From: Desulfovibrionaceae bacterium | Lineage (GTDB): Bacteria; Pseudomonadota; Gammaproteobacteria; Burkholderiales; Burkholderiaceae_C | Reading direction: 5' to 3' | NCBI GenBank assembly: GCA_009778355.1 | Contig: WRJY01000336.1 | Coordinates: 1 to 39,951 of the forward strand | DNA length: 39,951 nucleotides | Part shown: positions 10,239 to 34,619 of the stretch, piece after piece | Layout of the letters: every line of letters begins with the position of its first letter | Numbering within the stretch: the stretch's first letter is position 1 | The notes under the pieces: model-generated | What the model was told of the DNA's origin: nothing | Databases searched by the model: none | What the model saw: the letters and a program-made list of their open reading frames with translations, nothing else | Translations under genes and position numbers: made by a program

Positions 10239-11750
10239 TCACCCTTGCCGCAGCGCCAGACTCCAGGGCGTTTTTTGCCACGTGGCGGCTTCCTCGCGCA
10301 GCAGGTGGGCCGATTGCGGCCAGTCGGCGCTCCAGCCGTCGCGGCAGTCCAGCGTGAAGCCGCGCGCTGGTTCGGCGCCGGGGCCGATGCTCAGGCGGAG
10401 CAGTTCCGGGTCTTGCCGCGCGTGGCACAGGATCACGGCCAGCCGCAGTGCCAGCAACTGGCGCATGAACGGCGCATCGCCAAATTGCGCTTGCAGTTTG
10501 CGCAACTTGCCGCGCTGGCCCAGCACGAGTTGGCCAAGCCGGTGCAGCTCGTGCATGGCAAAGCCGGGCGGGTCGGCGTGCTCGATGATGTAGGCGCCGT
10601 GCTTGTGATGGTCGGTGTGCGAGATGTACGCGCCGATTTCGTGCAGGCGAGCCGCCCATTCGATCTGGCGCTCCAGTTCCTGGCGCTGTTTGTTTTTCAA
10701 CTGAAGCGCCGGTGTCAACTGGCCGAACAGGTACAGCGCGGCGCGCGCCACGCGCGCGGCCTGCGCCGGGTCGGTCTGAAAGCGCGCGGCCAGCGCTTCG
10801 ATGGCGGCGGCGCGCACGTCGGTGGCCTGGTCTTGCCGGCCCAGCATGTCGTACAGCGCGCCGTGGCGCAGTGCGCCGTAGGCGTAGCGCAGGCGGTCGA
10901 TGTGCAGCAGATCGGCCAGCGCGCACAGCGTTGCCAGCCCGCCGGCGATGACGCTCTTGCGTTCGTCCTTGATGCCATCGAGCCGGATGGCTTGCACGCG
11001 CCGGGCCTTGATGAGCTTCTCGCGCAACCAGGCCAGGCCGGCGCGGGTGATGATGTGGCGCGCCGGCGTCTGGCCGGCGGCCAGCAGTGTGTCGGCGATG
11101 GCGCCCACGGTGCCTGAGCAGCCGTAGGCCATGTCCCACTGCGCCGGCCCGTGGGTGGATGCGGCGGCGTCGAACACCGCCTTGGCGGCGATTTCGGCGC
11201 GCTCGAAGTTGCGCGCCGAAAGCTGCCCATCGGCAAAGTAGCGCATCGACCACGCCACGCTGCCGATGGGATAGGACTCCATGACGCGCGGCGCGCGGCC
11301 CTGGCCGACGATCAGTTCGGTGGAACGCCCGCCGATATCGAGCACCAGCCGCCGCTCGTCCGACGGCGGCAGCAGGTGCGCGACGCCCTGGTAGATCAGG
11401 CGCGCTTCCTCGCGACCGGAGATGACGTCGATCGGAAAGCCAAGGATCCGCTCGGCCTCGATCAGAAACTGGTCGCGGTTGAGCGCCTCGCGCAGCGTCT
11501 GCGTGGCGACGGCGCGCACCTGGCTGGGCGCAAGGCCGGCCAGCCGGCCGGCAAAGCGGGCGAGGCAACTCCAGCCGCGCTGCATGGCCTCCTGCGACAG
11601 GCGGCCCTCATCGTCCAGCCCGGCGCCCTGGCGCACGGTTTCCTTGTGGTATTCCACGCGCCGCAACTGGCCCAGTTCGAGTTGGGCGATTTCGAGGCGG
11701 AAGCTGTTGGAGCCCAGATCCACGGCGGCGAGGCGGTCGGCGGTCGGCAT
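10239..11750 (-). CDS. ppx: Exopolyphosphatase, Ppx/GppA family
   Basis: Releases phosphate from polyphosphate, or hydrolyses pppGpp. The 503-residue protein has the actin-like ATPase-type N-terminal half, with AAVDLGSNSFRLEIAQ at 9-23, the acidic SGREEARLIYQG near 111-122 and DIGGRSTELI near 138-147. The C-terminal half carries HD-domain-like histidines (LHEIGAYISHTDHHKHGAYII). The ATG at 11750 places the P-loop-like motif near the N-terminus as in homologues; an ATG 19 codons further upstream would lengthen the tail without similarity. It is divergent from pstS across a Pho-box array, so phosphate starvation may control both genes. Confidence 0.92.
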   Translation of the reverse strand: MPTADRLAAVDLGSNSFRLEIAQLELGQLRRVEYHKETVRQGAGLDDEGRLSQEAMQRGWSCLARFAGRLAGLAPSQVRAVATQTLREALNRDQFLIEAERILGFPIDVISGREEARLIYQGVAHLLPPSDERRLVLDIGGRSTELIVGQGRAPRVMESYPIGSVAWSMRYFADGQLSARNFERAEIAAKAVFDAAASTHGPAQWDMAYGCSGTVGAIADTLLAAGQTPARHIITRAGLAWLREKLIKARRVQAIRLDGIKDERKSVIAGGLATLCALADLLHIDRLRYAYGALRHGALYDMLGRQDQATDVRAAAIEALAARFQTDPAQAARVARAALYLFGQLTPALQLKNKQRQELERQIEWAARLHEIGAYISHTDHHKHGAYIIEHADPPGFAMHELHRLGQLVLGQRGKLRKLQAQFGDAPFMRQLLALRLAVILCHARQDPELLRLSIGPGAEPARGFTLDCRDGWSADWPQSAHLLREEAATWQKTPWSLALRQG

Positions 11751-11800
11751 GATTGCGGGCGATTGTGGCGCATGAACGCGTGCGCCGGGCGGCTGTTGCT

Positions 11801-11875
11801 GCGTCATCGTTGCGTCATCGTTGCGTCATCGTTGCGTCATCGTTGCGTCATTGTTATGTCATCAAATTGTCACAT
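11801..11875 (+). promoter_or_regulatory. Extended PhoB-binding array (seven 11-bp-phased half-sites)
   Basis: Starting at 11801, the 11-base unit GCGTCATCGTT occurs four times perfectly (11801-11844), then GCGTCATTGTT (11845-11855), ATGTCATCAAA (11856-11866) and TTGTCACAT (11867-11875). PhoB binds direct repeats of a 7-base TGTCA-containing half-site every 11 bases. The last two units read ATGTCATCAAATTGTCACAT, close to the classical Pho box, and the five upstream units keep exact phase with the core GTCAT. The array sits between ppx and pstS. Confidence 0.85.
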
Positions 11876-11889
11876 GGGCTGCCTACATT
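11856..11889 (+). promoter_or_regulatory. PhoB-dependent pstS promoter
   Basis: The Pho box at 11856-11873 stands in for a -35 element. A -10-like TACATT follows at 11884-11889, 10 bases after the box, which is the spacing usual for PhoB-activated promoters. Transcription would start near 11896, about 30 bases before the pstS ATG. Position is inferred from sequence only. Confidence 0.7.
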
Positions 11890-11926: not shown

Positions 11927-12955
11927 ATGAAACGCACCTTTCTCAAAACACTGGCCTTCGCCGCCATCGGCGCATTCATCGGCGCCACGGCGCAGGCTGC
12001 CGACATCACCGGCGCGGGGGCGAGTTTCCCGTACCCGGTCTACGCCAAGTGGGCCGAAGGCTACAAGGCCGCCACCGGCACGGGCCTGAACTACCAGTCC
12101 ATCGGCTCGTCGGGCGGCGTGCGCCAGATTCAGGCCAAAACGGTGGCCTTCGGCGCTTCCGACGCGCCGCTGGCAGCCGGCGATCTGGACAAGGACGGCC
12201 TGGCGCAGTTTCCCGCCATCATCGGCGGCACGGTGCCGGTGCTGAACGTCGAGGGCTTTCAGCCTGGCGAATTGCGCGTGACCGGCCCGGTGCTGGCCGA
12301 CATTTTCATGGGCGTCATCGCCAAGTGGAACGATCCCCGGTTCGCGGCCCTGAATCCGGGCAAGAAGCTGCCTGACCTGGCCATTACCGTGGTGCACCGC
12401 GCCGACGGTTCGGGCACCACCTTCAACTGGACCGACTACCTGAGCGCCGTCAGCCCGGACTGGGCCGCCAAGGTGGGCAAGGGCAACGCCGTCAAGTGGC
12501 TGGCCGATACGGCGGTGGGCGGCAAGGGCAACGAAGGCGTGGCCGCCAACGTCAGCCGCATCAAGGGCGCCATCGGCTACGTGGAATACGCCTACGCCAA
12601 GAAAAACAGGCTGACCCACATGCAGGTGCAAAACCAGGCCGGCAAGTTCGTCAACCCCGACGACACCAGCTTCGCCGCCGCCGCTGCCGGCGTGGACTGG
12701 TTCAGCGTGCCGGGCATGGGCGTGTCGATGGTCAACGCCAGGGGCGACAACGCCTGGCCGATTTCCACCGCCTCGTTCATCCTGATGTACAAGCAGCCCG
12801 TTGACAAGGCGCAGTCCGCCGAGGTGCTGAAGTTCTTCGACTGGGCGTTCACCCACGGCAAGCAGGCCGCCGCCGAATTGGACTACGTGCCGCTGCCCGA
12901 CTCCTTGACCGCCGACATCCGCGCCAAGGTGTGGCCGCAGATCAACACCAAATGA
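11927..12955 (+). CDS. pstS: Periplasmic phosphate-binding protein PstS
   Basis: High-affinity phosphate receptor of the Pst ABC transporter. The 342-residue precursor has a Sec signal peptide with a basic start (MKRTFLK), a hydrophobic core, and a likely cleavage after TAQA (residue 24), leaving a mature N-terminus ADITGAGASFPYPVYAKW. Phosphate-contacting motifs are SIGSSGGVRQI, the SDAPL region and RADGSGTTFNW. I chose the ATG at 11927 because it starts the signal peptide; the open frame extends upstream through the Pho-box repeats without meaning. A GAGAG sequence about 9 bases upstream may serve as ribosome binding site. It heads the pst-pho gene set. Confidence 0.96.
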   Translation: MKRTFLKTLAFAAIGAFIGATAQAADITGAGASFPYPVYAKWAEGYKAATGTGLNYQSIGSSGGVRQIQAKTVAFGASDAPLAAGDLDKDGLAQFPAIIGGTVPVLNVEGFQPGELRVTGPVLADIFMGVIAKWNDPRFAALNPGKKLPDLAITVVHRADGSGTTFNWTDYLSAVSPDWAAKVGKGNAVKWLADTAVGGKGNEGVAANVSRIKGAIGYVEYAYAKKNRLTHMQVQNQAGKFVNPDDTSFAAAAAGVDWFSVPGMGVSMVNARGDNAWPISTASFILMYKQPVDKAQSAEVLKFFDWAFTHGKQAAAELDYVPLPDSLTADIRAKVWPQINTK

Positions 12956-13020: not shown

Positions 13021-13254
13021 GGCCCCCATCCCAGCCTTCCCCCAGAGGGGGAAGGAGCAAGACTTCTTCTCCCTCCGAGGGAAAGTTTTCCATTCCCTCC
13101 CTCTCTGGGGGAAATTTTTCCATTCCCTCTCTCTCTGGGGGAAAGTTTTTCATTCCCTCTCTCTCTGGGGGAAAGTTTTTCATTCCCTCCCCTCTGGGGA
13201 AAAGTTTTCCATCTCCTCCCCCTCTGGGGGAGGGTAGGGTGGGGGCCTGCGGCG
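13021..13254. repeat. Dispersed GC-rich element with internal 30-bp tandem repeats, between pstS and pstC
   Basis: The 388-base gap between pstS and pstC holds this element. Its ends are inverted relatives: GGCCCCCATCCCAGCC at the left, and GGGTGGGGGCC near the right. The left end contains a perfect hairpin CCTTCCCCC-aga-GGGGGAAGG (13035-13055). Inside, units of 24, 30, 30, 30 and 29 bases (from 13071 to 13213) carry a pyrimidine block, a CTGGGGGAAA core and TTTTTCATT; the units at 13125-13154 and 13155-13184 are identical. A relative lies at 17488-17636. In RNA it would fold strongly, so it may separate pstS from pstC expression. No coding potential is convincing. Confidence 0.8.

Positions 13255-16745: not shown

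Positions 16746-16749
<4 letters not shown>
16048..16749 (+). CDS. phoU: Phosphate signalling regulator PhoU
   Basis: PhoU links the Pst transporter to the PhoR kinase and represses the Pho response when phosphate is plentiful. The 233-residue protein is two similar three-helix bundles, each with the metal-binding motif: ERVGDEAAKIARM in the first and ERVGDHAKNIAEFIIY in the second. It starts 6 bases after pstB and its stop overlaps the phoB start by 4 bases, so transporter and regulator genes are co-translated. Confidence 0.96.
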
Positions 16750-17441
<692 letters not shown>

Positions 17442-17487: not shown

Positions 17488-17636
17488 GGCCCCCATCCCA
17501 GCCTTCCCCAAAAGGGGGAAGGAGCCGCAATCCCTCCCCTGCTGGGGATGCTCCTTCTTTTCCTTTCCTCACTGGGAGATGCTCCTTCTTCTCCCTCACC
17601 CGCTTGGGGAGGGCTGGGGTGGGGGTCAGCGGCGGC
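17488..17636. repeat. Dispersed GC-rich element, second copy, between phoB and phoR
   Basis: The left end GGCCCCCATCCCAGCCTTCC is identical to the element at 13021, followed by the same type of C-run/G-run hairpin and GGAAGGAGC. The right end GGGGTGGGGGTCAGCGGCG is an inverted relative of the left end, and ACGCACGC follows a few bases downstream in both copies. The interior has two GGGGATGCTCCTTCTT / GGGAGATGCTCCTTCTT units. It occupies most of the 261-base phoB-phoR gap. Confidence 0.75.
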
Positions 17637-17702
17637 AAATAACGCACGCACCTCCAATGCGGAGGCGATCCACTCAAAACCGCTTTAGCGCCCTGCTTGC
17701 CG

Positions 17703-19031
17703 ATGCGCATCCTTGTCTTTGTCCTCGTGCAAGCCGTGCCCGGCCTGCTGGGCTGGCTGTGGCAAGGCTGGCCTGGCGCGGCGGCGGGCGTGGCCGGCGG
17801 TTCGGTTGCGCTGCTGGCGCTGGATGCATGGCATGGCCGCCGTTTCATGCGGTGGCTGCGCGCGCCTGAATCCAGCCCGCCGCCGGCGCTGCGCGGCCTG
17901 TGGCGTGAAGCCGCTCACCGCGTCGCGCGGGCGCTGCGCGAAGAGCGCGAACGCGGGCGCGAAAGCGCCCGGCGGCTGGACGATTTCCTGGCCGCCATCC
18001 AGGCCTCGCCCGACGGCGTGATCCTGCTCGACGCCGAGGGCCGCATCGAGTGGTGCAACGGCATGGCGAGCCGGCATTTGGGCATCGACCCGCGTCGCGA
18101 CCTGTTGCAGCACATTGGCAACCTGGTGCGCGATCCGGCCTTCGCCGCACATCTGGCGGGGCGCGACGGCACCGCGGAAGTCGCGCTCGCCGGACGCGAC
18201 CACACCCCGGCGCAGCCGGTGCGGCTGTCGGTGCAGATGCATCCTTATGGCGCGGGCCATCGGCTCATGCTCTCGCGCGATGTCACGGCGCTGGTCCAGT
18301 CCGACGCCATGCGGCGCAACTTCGTCGCCAACGTGTCGCACGAGTTGCGCACGCCGCTCACGGTGCTGGCCGGTTTCGTCGAGACCATGCAGTCGCTGCC
18401 GCTGGCCGAAGACGAACGCGCCCGCTACTTGGACTTGATGGCCGGGCAGTCGGCGCGCATGAAGGCGCTGATCGACGATCTGCTCACGCTCTCGCGGCTG
18501 GAAGGCAGCCCGCCGCCCGGCGCTGACCAGGCTGATCTGCCCGCCCTGATGGCGCAGTGCGAGGCCGAGGCGCGCGCTCTCTCGAACCTGCTGCATCCGT
18601 CCGCGGAGCCGGCGCAGCGCCTGCGCTTTGCCGAACTGCCCGGCTTCGCCCTGACGGGCGCGGCCCATGAGCTGCGCAGCGCCATCTCCAACCTGGTCAA
18701 CAACGCCGTGCGCTACACCCCCGCTGGCGGCGCCATCGACGTGGCCTGGCAGCGCCTGCCCGATGGCGGCGCCCGGCTGTCAGTGGCCGACACCGGCCCC
18801 GGCATCGCGCCCGAACACCTGTCGCGGCTGAGCGAGCGTTTTTACCGCGTCGATCACAGCCGCGCGCGCGCCTCGGGCGGCACCGGCCTGGGCCTGGCCA
18901 TCGTCAAGCACGTGGCGCAGCGCCACGGCGGCGAACTCCAGATCAGCAGCGTCCTCGGTCACGGTTCGTGCTTCGCGCTGGCGCTTCCGGCGCAGCGGGT
19001 GCGGGAGCTGAACGCGGCGACGGCCCCTTGA
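17703..19031 (+). CDS. phoR: Phosphate regulon sensor histidine kinase PhoR
   Basis: Membrane kinase that phosphorylates PhoB. The 442-residue protein has two short N-terminal membrane segments (about 2-20 and 26-41), a charged linker, a PAS domain at about 90-190 (FLAAIQASPDGVILLDAEGRI), the dimerisation domain with phospho-histidine H213 in NVSHELRTPL, and an ATPase domain with SNLVNNAVRYT (N box), VADTGPGIAP (G1) and GGTGLGLAIVKH (G2). The ATG at 17703 begins MRILVFVLVQ; an in-frame TTG lies 6 bases upstream. It is separated from phoB by the dispersed element. The last 89 bases overlap a small convergent gene. Confidence 0.95.
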   Translation: MRILVFVLVQAVPGLLGWLWQGWPGAAAGVAGGSVALLALDAWHGRRFMRWLRAPESSPPPALRGLWREAAHRVARALREERERGRESARRLDDFLAAIQASPDGVILLDAEGRIEWCNGMASRHLGIDPRRDLLQHIGNLVRDPAFAAHLAGRDGTAEVALAGRDHTPAQPVRLSVQMHPYGAGHRLMLSRDVTALVQSDAMRRNFVANVSHELRTPLTVLAGFVETMQSLPLAEDERARYLDLMAGQSARMKALIDDLLTLSRLEGSPPPGADQADLPALMAQCEAEARALSNLLHPSAEPAQRLRFAELPGFALTGAAHELRSAISNLVNNAVRYTPAGGAIDVAWQRLPDGGARLSVADTGPGIAPEHLSRLSERFYRVDHSRARASGGTGLGLAIVKHVAQRHGGELQISSVLGHGSCFALALPAQRVRELNAATAP

Positions 19032-19214: not shown

Positions 19215-21272
19215 TCACCCCGCGCCCAGCGCCAGCGCCGCGCGGTACGTGACGAAAGCCGCCAGGTAGGCCAGCCCGAACAACTGCGCCAGCATGACCA
19301 GCGGAGTGCGCCAGCCGCCTGTTTCGCGCTTGACGGCGACCAGGGTGGACACGCATTGCGGCGCGAACACGTACCAGGCCAGCAGCGCCAGCGCGGTGGC
19401 CAGGCTCCAGCTTTGCGCCAGCAGCGGTTCGAGTTGCCGCGCCACGTCGTCGCCGCTGGCCGACAGCGCGTACACCGTGCCCAAAGCGCCCACCGCCACT
19501 TCGCGCGCGGCCATGCCGGGCACCAGGGCGATGGCGATTTGCCAGTTGAAGCCCACCGGGGCCAGCAGTTTTTGCAGCGCCAACCCGATCTGCCCGGCCC
19601 AACTGTGCAAGATGGCCGGCCCGGCGGCGCCCGGCGGCGGGGCGGGGTAGCTGGAGAGGAACCACAGCAGCACCATCACCGCCAGAATGATGCCGCCCAC
19701 CCGCCGCAAAAAAATGCGCGCCCGCTCCCACAGCCCGAAAGCCAGTTGGCGCGGGCTGGGCCAGCGGTAGGCCGGCAGTTCCATGATGAGCGGCGTGGGC
19801 TGCGCGCCCTGACTGGCGTTGCCCAGCCGGTAGCTCCAGGCCAGGCCGAGCGCGCTCAGAATGCCCGCCAAATACAGTGCGAACAGCACCAGCCCTTGCA
19901 GATTGAACCAGCCGGCCACCGCGCGGTTGGGAATGAAGGCGGCGATCAGCAGCGCATACACCGGCAGCCGGGCCGAGCAGGTCATCAGCGGCGCGATCAT
20001 GATGGTGACCAGCCGGTCGCGCCAGTGCGTGATGGTGCGCGTGGCCATGATGCCTGGCACCGCGCAGGCAAAGCTCGACAGCAGCGGAATGAACGAGCGC
20101 CCCGACAGCCCCACGCGGCCCATCACCCGGTCCAGCAAAAAGGCGGCGCGCGGCAGGTAGCCGGAGTCTTCCAGCGCCAGGATGAACAGAAACAGAATCA
20201 GAATCTGCGGCAAGAACACCAGCACGCTGCCCACGCCGGCAACGATGCCGTCGGCCAGCAGGCTGCGCAGCGGCCCTTCGGCCATGTGCGCGTGAACGAA
20301 TGCGGCGGCGCCCTTCATGCCGCTTTCGATCCAGCCGGCGGGCACGGCGGCCCAACTGAACACGGCCTGAAACATCAAAAACAGCAGCGCCGCCAGAATC
20401 GCCATGCCCCACAGCGGGTGCAGCAGCACGCGGTCGATGGCGTCGTCGCGCGCCAGCGGCTGCTCGGGCGCCTGCACGGCTTCGCGCACGATGCGCTGCA
20501 CTTCGTGGTGGGCCAGCATCACTTCCTGCACGCCGGGCGGCTGGCTGGCGGCGGCGGCGCTGCGCTGAACCAGCGGCGGGCGGCGCGCGTCCAGCGCCGC
20601 CACCAGCGCCCTGGCGCCGCCGGCCTGCACGCCCACCGTCGGCACCACCGGCGCGCCCAGCAGCGCGGCCAGGCGTTCGGTGTCGATGCGGATGCCCAGC
20701 CGCTCGGCCATGTCGCTCATGTTCAGCGCCACCAGCATCGGAATGCCCAGCCGCCGCGCTTCCAGCACCAGACGCAGGTTCAGGCGCAGCTTGGTGGCAT
20801 CGACCACGCACACCAGCAGGTCGGGCAGCGCCTCGCCGGCGCGCTGGCCGGTAACCACGTCGCGGGTGATTTCCTCGTCCAGCGACAGCGCGTTCAGGCT
20901 GTACGCGCCGGGCAAATCCAGCACCACGGCATCGCGCCCGCTGGGCAGATGCAGGCGGCCTTCCTTGCGCTCCACCGTGACGCCGGCATAGTTGGCCACC
21001 TTCTGGCGGCTGCCGGTCAGCAGGTTGAACAACGCCGTCTTGCCGCAGTTGGGGTTGCCCAGCAGCGCCACGCGCAAGGGGCGAGTGGCCTGGGGGCTGC
21101 CGGCAACGGGGCGCGGCGGCGGCTCCCCCGCTGGGAGTTGAGCGTTGAGCGTTGAGCGTTGAGCGTGGTCCGGGTCAGGACGCTGAACGCTGAACGCTGA
21201 ACGCTGAACGCTGAACGCTGAACGCTGAACGCTGAACGCTGAACGCTGAACGCTTTTTTGCGGGGCGGTCAT
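19215..21272 (-). CDS. feoB: Ferrous iron transporter FeoB
   Basis: GTP-driven Fe(II) importer of the inner membrane, 685 residues. The G domain has GNPNCGKT at 72-79 (G1), switch region VANYAGVTVERKEG, DLPGAYSL at 119-126 (G3) and LNMSDMAE (G4); the C-terminal part has the two gate regions (ILALEDSGYLPRAAF; PLMTCSARLPVYALL) and about ten membrane helices. The start at 21272 overlaps the feoA stop by 4 bases. About 67 unusual residues precede the G domain, encoded by heptanucleotide tandem repeats (SVQRSAF repeated), which family members lack. If translation starts at 21272, a change in repeat number shifts the frame; an internal start after the repeats is the alternative. Confidence 0.95.
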   Translation of the reverse strand: MTAPQKSVQRSAFSVQRSAFSVQRSAFSVQRPDPDHAQRSTLNAQLPAGEPPPRPVAGSPQATRPLRVALLGNPNCGKTALFNLLTGSRQKVANYAGVTVERKEGRLHLPSGRDAVVLDLPGAYSLNALSLDEEITRDVVTGQRAGEALPDLLVCVVDATKLRLNLRLVLEARRLGIPMLVALNMSDMAERLGIRIDTERLAALLGAPVVPTVGVQAGGARALVAALDARRPPLVQRSAAAASQPPGVQEVMLAHHEVQRIVREAVQAPEQPLARDDAIDRVLLHPLWGMAILAALLFLMFQAVFSWAAVPAGWIESGMKGAAAFVHAHMAEGPLRSLLADGIVAGVGSVLVFLPQILILFLFILALEDSGYLPRAAFLLDRVMGRVGLSGRSFIPLLSSFACAVPGIMATRTITHWRDRLVTIMIAPLMTCSARLPVYALLIAAFIPNRAVAGWFNLQGLVLFALYLAGILSALGLAWSYRLGNASQGAQPTPLIMELPAYRWPSPRQLAFGLWERARIFLRRVGGIILAVMVLLWFLSSYPAPPPGAAGPAILHSWAGQIGLALQKLLAPVGFNWQIAIALVPGMAAREVAVGALGTVYALSASGDDVARQLEPLLAQSWSLATALALLAWYVFAPQCVSTLVAVKRETGGWRTPLVMLAQLFGLAYLAAFVTYRAALALGAG
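21137..21164. repeat. Heptanucleotide tandem repeat GTTGAGC x4 in feoB
   Basis: Four perfect copies of GTTGAGC (plus strand) at 21137-21164, followed by a partial copy. They lie in the 5' coding region of feoB, 16 bases from the larger heptamer tract. The minus-strand unit GCTCAAC recurs before hslU at 30951-30984. Confidence 0.95.
21181..21254. repeat. Heptanucleotide tandem repeat CGCTGAA x10.6 in feoB
   Basis: Ten perfect copies of CGCTGAA run from 21181 to 21250, plus CGCT to 21254. The tract starts about 18 bases inside feoB and encodes the repeated peptide SVQRSAF. The unit length is not a multiple of three, so slippage by one unit changes the reading frame: the form of a contingency-locus tract. 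Confidence 0.97.
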
Positions 21273-30362: not shown

Positions 30363-30935
30363 ATGCAAGCATTTCACGGCACCACCATCATCAGCGTGCG
30401 CCGGCAAACCCCAGAAGGCTGGCAGGTGGCCATCGGGGGCGACGGCCAGGTCACGCTGGGTAACATCGTCGTCAAAGGATCGGCGCGCAAGGTGCGCAAG
30501 CTCTACCACGGCAGGGTGCTGGCGGGTTTTGCCGGCGCCACGGCGGATGCCTTCACGCTGTTCGAGCGTTTCGAGGCCAAGCTGGAAAAGCACCAGGGCC
30601 ACCTGACCCGCGCCGCCATCGAGCTGACCAAGGACTGGCGCACCGACCGCGTGCTGCGCCGCCTGGAGGCCATGCTGGCTGTGGCCGACAAGAGCGCTTC
30701 GCTCATCATCACCGGCAACGGCGACGTACTGGAGCCTGAGCACGGGCTGGTGGCCATCGGTTCCGGCGGCGCCTATGCGCAGGCGGCGGCCAAGGCGCTG
30801 CTCGATCACACCGAATTGCCCGCCGAACAAATCGTCAAGAAGGCGCTGGAAATCGCTGGCGAGCTGTGCATCTACACCAACATGCAGCACACCGTCGAAA
30901 CGCTTGGTGATGCGGGTTCCGCGTCGGGCGTTTAG
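30363..30935 (+). CDS. hslV: ATP-dependent protease proteolytic subunit HslV
   Basis: Threonine protease core of the HslUV (ClpYQ) complex. The 190-residue product starts [14 protein letters not shown]; removal of the first six residues would expose catalytic T7. Other motifs are [38 protein letters not shown] and [14 protein letters not shown]. The C-terminal ~10 residues (GDAGSASGV) are longer than usual, and the stop codon lies inside a decayed heptamer repeat, which may have moved the original stop. hslU follows after 58 bases. Confidence 0.96.
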
Positions 30936-30984
30936 CGTTTAGCGTCCCACGCTCAACGCCCAACGCCCACGCTCAACGCTCAAC
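30930..30984. repeat. Imperfect heptanucleotide repeats between hslV and hslU
   Basis: From 30930: GTTTAGC twice, GTCCCAC, GCTCAAC, GCCCAAC, GCCCAC, then GCTCAAC twice. The unit GCTCAAC is the same as the minus-strand heptamer in feoB. The tract contains the hslV stop codon (30933-30935) and ends 9 bases before the hslU start, so it sits where the hslU ribosome binding site should be. Confidence 0.85.
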
Positions 30985-30993
30985 GAACGCCCC

Positions 30994-33701: not shown

Positions 33702-34240
33702 TCTTCTTGCCGCACAGCGACTACAAGCGCCTGCTTCAAGTCTGGCCCGCCGTTCAAGAGTATCAGACCCTTGCCACCAAACACGGGATTGATGACGTGT
33801 TTCAAGACAACGGCGGAAAGCTTCTCCAGGTGCTCTTGCTTCTGGGCCTGAAGATCATCCCGGGCCGCGAGGGCAACGACGCCATTGACACTGAGGGGCG
33901 CGAGTATGAGTTGAAGTCAGTCAACATCGAACTGACGCACGGTTTTTCCACGCACCACCACATGAACCCGGCCATCATCGCCAAGTACCGGCAAGTGCCT
34001 TGGGTGTTCGCTGTCTATCGAGACATCGCGCTACAGACTGTCTACCTACTGGAGCCGGCTGACTTGGAGTTCTACTTCACCAAGTGGGAAGAGAAGTGGC
34101 ACGCGGACGGAAGGAAGGACATCAACAACCCAAAGATTCCCATCAAGTACGTGATGAAGTACGGCAAGCTGATACACGGCACTGCGCCGGGTCTTTCCAT
34201 CAAACGTAAGAAGGTCGTGACGAACAAGCGCAAGCCGTAG
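33698..34240 (+). CDS. PvuII-type restriction endonuclease (CAGCTG)
   Basis: A 180-residue type II endonuclease very like R.PvuII (157 residues). It shares [20 protein letters not shown], LPGREGNDA-like [26 protein letters not shown] and AKYRQVPW. The R.PvuII catalytic residues D58, E68 and K70 correspond to D61, E71 and K73; the base-contacting histidines (H86-H88) and Y97 are also present, so it should be active. Start is GTG 33698, overlapping the C stop. About 20 extra residues (ending [12 protein letters not shown], basic) extend the C-terminus, followed at once by a hexamer repeat. AT-richer than the chromosome. Confidence 0.95.
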
Positions 34241-34294
34241 CTATGGCTATGGCTATGGCTATGGCTATGGCTATGGCTATGGCTATGGCTATGG
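34241..34294. repeat. Hexanucleotide tandem repeat CTATGG x9
   Basis: Nine perfect copies of CTATGG begin on the base after the endonuclease stop codon (TAG 34238-34240). Apparent open frames through it (Met-Ala or His-Ser runs) are products of the repeat. It marks the right end of the restriction-modification island. Confidence 0.97.
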
Positions 34295-34619
34295 CGAAGG
34301 GTTGCAACATCGCAACCGTTCCGGTCGGCAGGTGCAACACGGCGCGGCGATTCGTAGAAGGCATCTTCTGTCCTGTGCTTCCCAAGCTCCAGCGCAGGTG
34401 CGGTCATGGCTTCCCGTTGAGTGGTTGGATTCGCCGTGTCAGTGCGGCGGCACAGGCGCGGCAGCCGCCCAGGGTTAGCGATTTACTTTGACTGTGTTCG
34501 CTAAGTTGTTAATTACAAAGGTTTTTGTCCTTGGTATCTCGCCAAAGGCCCATCTAACACATTGATTTCATTGAAATAATTTACTGTTTCCCTGTTGCGC
34601 GGCGCTCAATTCCTGCTAC
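34295..34619. other. Non-coding region before the mraZ operator
   Basis: About 325 bases with no supported gene. The right half (34480-34610) is notably AT-rich for this chromosome and includes the dyad ATTTC-att-GAAAT (34566-34578), so it probably contains the promoter of the division cluster. I could not place -35 and -10 elements with confidence. The left half may belong to the inserted island. Confidence 0.4.

Follow-up and report, generated by a model that had tools for sequence, protein, structure and literature searches.

Seven phased 11-bp units at a putative PhoB promoter of pstS in a draft Burkholderiaceae genome

Operators that contain more than two half-sites are already known for regulators of the PhoB type, as described for E. 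coli pstS and ugp and for Streptomyces PhoP. The ugp promoter of E. coli is described as carrying multiple Pho boxes, with more than one site for a PhoB dimer (PMC4415409), and multiple Pho boxes at the phoBR promoter of V. cholerae are the subject of a title cited in PMC6194859. Complex PhoP operators in Streptomyces are portrayed as adjoining 11-nt direct repeats of differing affinity, in which a strong core is accompanied by weaker neighbours (PMC4415409, PMC7866108). In Burkholderia sensu lato, Pho boxes have been predicted upstream of olsB and modelled as 18-bp two-unit boxes (PMC7814305). Activation by PhoB has been reported to require a strict spacing between the Pho box and the core promoter (PMC10294691).

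The DNA analysed here (the window) is a stretch of 39,951 bp from a metagenome-assembled draft genome of 2.53 Mb (338 contigs, 62.8% complete), which named relatives place in Ottowia (Comamonadaceae/Burkholderiaceae); the number of units reported below is that of this assembly. A search for further genomes of the species found none, the nearest PstS being 84% identical. The pstS gene is followed by a pst gene and then by phoU, phoB and phoR, and ppx lies divergently upstream of it (Table 1), with its start likely at 11750 rather than at 11807, the latter falling within the array. The DNA-binding domain of the encoded PhoB aligns to that of E. coli PhoB (1gxp/3t72), and the alignment takes in the recognition helix (RTVDVH-RLR); the protein would therefore be expected to recognise half-sites of the TGTCA type. 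The window also contains other repeats. A 30-bp repeat occurs in five copies between pstS and pstC (13079-13231), and GC-rich sequence similar to it, with related translated text, lies between phoB and phoR (about 17500-17680); the two may belong to a REP-like family. Perfect or near-perfect short tandem arrays are found at 21137-21254, 30928-30985 and 34240-34295, with the motifs GTTGAGC, ACGCTGA (10.7 copies), GCGTTTA/ACGCTCA and GCTATG (9.3 copies).

Between ppx and pstS, seven GTCA-bearing 11-bp units follow one another in strict phase from 11802 to 11878, when read in the C/T-GTCA register. A sequence-only reading of the window had described a Pho box lengthened in 11-bp steps to seven units in phase, of which the first four are identical, and all of this is borne out, the span that it gave (11801-11875) being correct to within 3 bases. 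Tandem Repeats Finder reports the array with period 11, 5.8 copies, a 92% match and a score of 107, which places it second among arrays with a period not divisible by 3 in the 400 kb of the genome sampled. The exact two-unit pattern TGTCATN5TGTCA has a single match in the 2.53-Mb draft assembly, namely the array itself, and no three phased GTCAT units occur elsewhere in that assembly. The array is not a chance occurrence; its units are nevertheless not independent events, because four of them are identical copies. A second candidate Pho site in the same genome (C252, L199), which has the two-unit pattern and a -10 element, was discarded since no convincing phosphate gene adjoins it. A coding repeat was likewise rejected: though an ORF that begins at 11753 crosses the array and enters pstS in frame, 11 is not divisible by 3, and pstS starts at 11927 with a signal peptide of its own.

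Table 1. Coordinates of the array units, promoter elements and neighbouring phosphate genes in the window
Feature	Position	Strand	Remarks
Units 1-4	11802-11812, 11813-11823, 11824-11834, 11835-11845	+	All CGTCATCGTTG, identical
Unit 5	11846-11856	+	CGTCATTGTTA; spacer is the sole difference from units 1-4
Unit 6	11857-11867	+	TGTCATCAAAT
Unit 7	11868-11878	+	TGTCACATGGG
Core Pho box (units 6 and 7)	11857-11878	+	Half-sites common to relatives; 8.7 and 12.5 bits on the pstS matrix
pstS -10 element, TACATT	11884-11889	+	15 nt after the G that opens the last GTCA
ppx -10-like element, CACAAT	11762-11767	-	Roughly 12 nt upstream of the start of ppx, within the block GATTGTGRCGCA
pstS	11927-12955	+	Phosphate-binding protein of the Pst transporter; PF12849, PBP_like_2
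ppx	10239-11750	-	Exopolyphosphatase, divergent; Ppx-GppA; PF02541, PF21447
phoB	16746-17441	+	Response regulator, presumed binder of the array; DNA-binding domain aligns to E. coli PhoB
phoR	17697-19031	+	Sensor kinase; PF11808, HisKA, HATPase_c

To place the array in its promoter context, the regions upstream of pstS were aligned from 80 related genomes. The last half-site lies 15 nt before TAnnnT in all 75 cores that were located (the window and 74 relatives), in a search that permitted spacings of 14-16 nt and whose scoring favoured 15. Exact phased runs of GTCA at these cores comprise no unit in 5 genomes, one in 17, two in 51 and three in a single genome, against seven in the window; thus two units are typical, and none of the relatives' pstS cores has more than three. 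In nine aligned relatives of the Ottowia group the GTCA motifs of the core and the TACA of the -10 element are invariant, and none of the nine has counterparts of units 1-5; these relatives have two units at the site where the window has seven. Units 6 and 7 correspond to the conserved pair, and the Pho box stands in place of the -35 element at exactly 15 nt from TACATT. The locus combines two TGTCA 11-bp half-sites at a fixed spacing to the -10 element with the presence of pstS, phoB and phoR, as in a PhoB-activated sigma-70 promoter, and its seven exact GTCA cores compare with the at least three contiguous phased cores that define an extended Pho operator. By its anatomy and conservation, the proximal pair is well supported as the Pho box of a PhoB promoter of pstS, since that pair and its 15-nt spacing to TAnnnT are conserved before pstS in the relatives, and E. 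coli pstS shows the same spacing. Many relatives have TGTGAC, a half-site inverted in orientation, immediately 5' of the distal half-site of the core (TGTGACGTCAC; L058-L064, Hydrogenophaga loci), and the window has TGTTAT at the same place.

The seven units agree in phase but are not equal: a strong match to the pstS consensus is found only in the proximal two. Units 1-5 score from -0.3 to 2.6 bits on the matrix of the relatives' pstS sites (2.6 for each of units 1-4), compared with relatives' means of 14.0 bits for the proximal half-site and 11.4 bits for the second one, because C replaces T before GTCA (position 0) and the A after GTCAC/T (position 6) is missing. On a second matrix, for which 37 distinct multi-unit arrays of Burkholderiaceae were used, units 1-5 fall at the 41st percentile; as these arrays were selected for GTCA, only the other positions of that matrix are informative. 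In the multi-unit arrays, GTCA is followed by C or T in 94% of the units, against 52% for GTCA generally in the same loci. Units 1-4 are probably distal, low-scoring candidate half-sites that were copied by tandem slippage, and since identical copies carry no conservation signal, selection on them is not demonstrable.

Arrays of several units are in themselves not very exceptional in the family, since four phased GTCA units are present in 74 of 401 Burkholderiaceae genomes, compared with 9 for a reversed control (counted from the table of matches). Of the 63 arrays examined, most of which have four units, 14 carry TAnnnT at +15 relative to the last GTCA, and none of the 63 carries it at a different spacing within the range 8 to 22. 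The genes directly 3' of the arrays encode an OlsB-like N-acyltransferase (in many genomes), PhoX, PhoD, glycerophosphodiester phosphodiesterase (GDPD), PPK2, 5'-nucleotidase, a calcineurin-like phosphoesterase and a phytase-like protein (Ottowia G014), as well as an ABC ATPase with a PhnD-like gene next in line. As these are phosphate-starvation functions, most GTCAC/T arrays in the family are very likely PhoB promoters. Loci L142-L186 hold such arrays, for example those at L167:2143-2179, L182:3055-3091 and L178:2951-2987, each with four units and the 15-nt spacing to the -10 element; at L171 the start of a 16S gene lies some 2.4 kb away, an observation of position only. No paper on four-unit arrays in Burkholderiaceae was found in the openly licensed literature, and this family-wide design may outweigh the single window in interest. 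That weak half-sites come in fours, at a fixed 15-nt spacing, ahead of many phosphate-starvation genes suggests that scans with 18- or 22-bp two-unit models will overlook or misread some of the Pho regulon in these GC-rich Burkholderiaceae.

Not every 11-bp GTCA array belongs to the Pho system, a generalisation ruled out by three arrays that lack a phosphate context. These are six copies of GTCAAACCCG flanked by genes for an SDR and a GST-like protein (L187), twelve TGTCATYACCC units upstream of grpE-dnaK in G522, a small-genome member of the order (L262:1501-1632), and GTCATCAGCRG in 11 units in G742. Five phased GTCAY units were found in three of 399 genomes of the order, namely that of the window, G522 and G742. 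Loci L146-L149 and L156-L158 carry four-unit arrays that likewise advance by 11 bp but are of a GTCAG type, and those at L147-L149 and L156-L158 precede genes for related transporter-like proteins with the common motif VIFASSLGTVFEWYDFYLYG; possibly they mark a different regulon of the OmpR/PhoB family.

The recent tandem expansion that had been proposed finds support in the four identical units and in the two units carried by the Ottowia relatives, and the extra units would have arisen by tandem slippage from one weak third half-site. A parallel is seen in G118 (L177:2996-3076), where eight GTCA units precede phnC and units 3-7 are all GTCACGGCGA; two relatives of G118 have a two-unit site before their phnC. 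Judged from these two sequences, expansion of an 11-bp array has occurred independently at least twice, at pstS here and at phnC in G118. Short tandem arrays (period 5-40) number 1.7 per 100 kb in the source genome and 0.5-0.8 in three Ottowia genomes sampled, roughly a two- to threefold difference in density that derives from small counts (7 against 3, 1 and 1).

We consider it reasonably probable that the proximal pair is functional and that the extra low-affinity half-sites load more PhoB~P, modestly raising or sharpening pstS output. Units 6 and 7 are well supported as the ancestral strong Pho box, at which a PhoB~P dimer is predicted to sit against sigma-70 where a -35 element would otherwise lie, and slippage would have turned the third half-site into five in-register weak ones that reach to about -94. 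Under phosphate starvation, PhoB~P bound to the core pair could extend head-to-tail along the array, and this loading may bring a modest gain in the occupancy and steepness of pstS activation, with ppx not driven by the array. What speaks for the involvement of the extra units is that units 1-5 have stayed in register, retain GTCAT and accord with the family array matrix, and that many comparable arrays precede phosphate-starvation genes, the eight-unit array of G118 among them; a point against it is that pstS of the relatives is regulated through two units. That two units are enough there also favours a neutral minisatellite, in which a unit at the edge of the box was copied by slippage and the copies are without effect, the core pair being sufficient. 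Such an origin is a possibility to be taken seriously, although we incline against it: identical head-to-tail units, as units 1-4 are, typify minisatellites, the five distal units are weak on the pstS matrix, 11-bp arrays exist outside any Pho context (those of G522, with 12 units, and G742, with 11, and CAGAGCACCTT in 4.8 copies in G020), and the source genome is somewhat richer in short tandem arrays than the three relatives, small as the counts are. However, the units lie in the Pho-box register, face pstS and have kept GTCAT, and the recurrence of non-identical multi-unit arrays at phosphate-starvation promoters is something that slippage alone does not explain.

The two remaining explanations carry far less weight. 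The array had also been proposed to activate ppx, and as a two-way operator it would at least be suitably placed, between both genes and with the start codon of ppx about 50 bp away. All of its units face pstS, however, and the 15-nt spacing to the -10 element suits pstS only; no TGAC, that is, no ppx-facing half-site, occurs between 11751 and 11926. The promoter-like block GATTGTGRCGCA of ppx is present in 14 of the 80 relatives whatever the length of their arrays, including relatives with only two units, and at L179, where two Pho-type targets diverge, a four-unit array faces the neighbour of pstS and points away from pstS itself. Given the missing ppx-facing half-site, the conserved -10 block that ppx has of its own and the strict spacing reported for PhoB activation (PMC10294691), activation of ppx by the array is unlikely, and a two-way operator very improbable. 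Least probable of all is a unit count inflated by an artefact of assembly or binning; the draft state and low completeness of this metagenome-derived genome would allow it, but the 77-bp array fits within one typical short read and its units are not all identical.

Whatever the role of the extra units, the locus offers a natural experiment on the number of PhoB half-sites per promoter, as sister species carry two at the same place. A wider proposal, that slippage in Pho-box arrays is a recurrent means of tuning in Burkholderiaceae, by which the gain or loss of single 11-bp units adjusts how low phosphate must fall, or how steeply the promoter responds, and unit number varies among strains (pstS here, phnC in G118), seems to us rather unlikely.

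Compared with the systems described earlier, the boxes predicted before olsB in Burkholderia come from the same order, and the arrays before olsB-like genes have units and a spacing of the same kind, but with four non-identical units where an 18-bp two-unit model was applied (PMC7814305). E. coli ugp and V. cholerae phoBR, as far as their descriptions go, offer sites for more than one PhoB dimer in a single promoter, as the window would. The Streptomyces PhoP operators share with it several contiguous 11-nt repeats of unequal strength; they differ in their consensus (GTTCACC) and in the four units cited for pitH2, and the accounts cited for them describe no identical slippage copies among their repeats. 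Another counterpart is E. coli pstS, the same gene, which with its two Pho boxes has 11-bp phased GTCA half-sites with a degenerate third position and its last GTCA 15 nt from TATTTT, but four positions with three exact GTCA and no identical run, where the window has seven. What is new is the seven contiguous units at pstS with their run of identical copies, a genuine, if modest, departure from a promoter layout already known.
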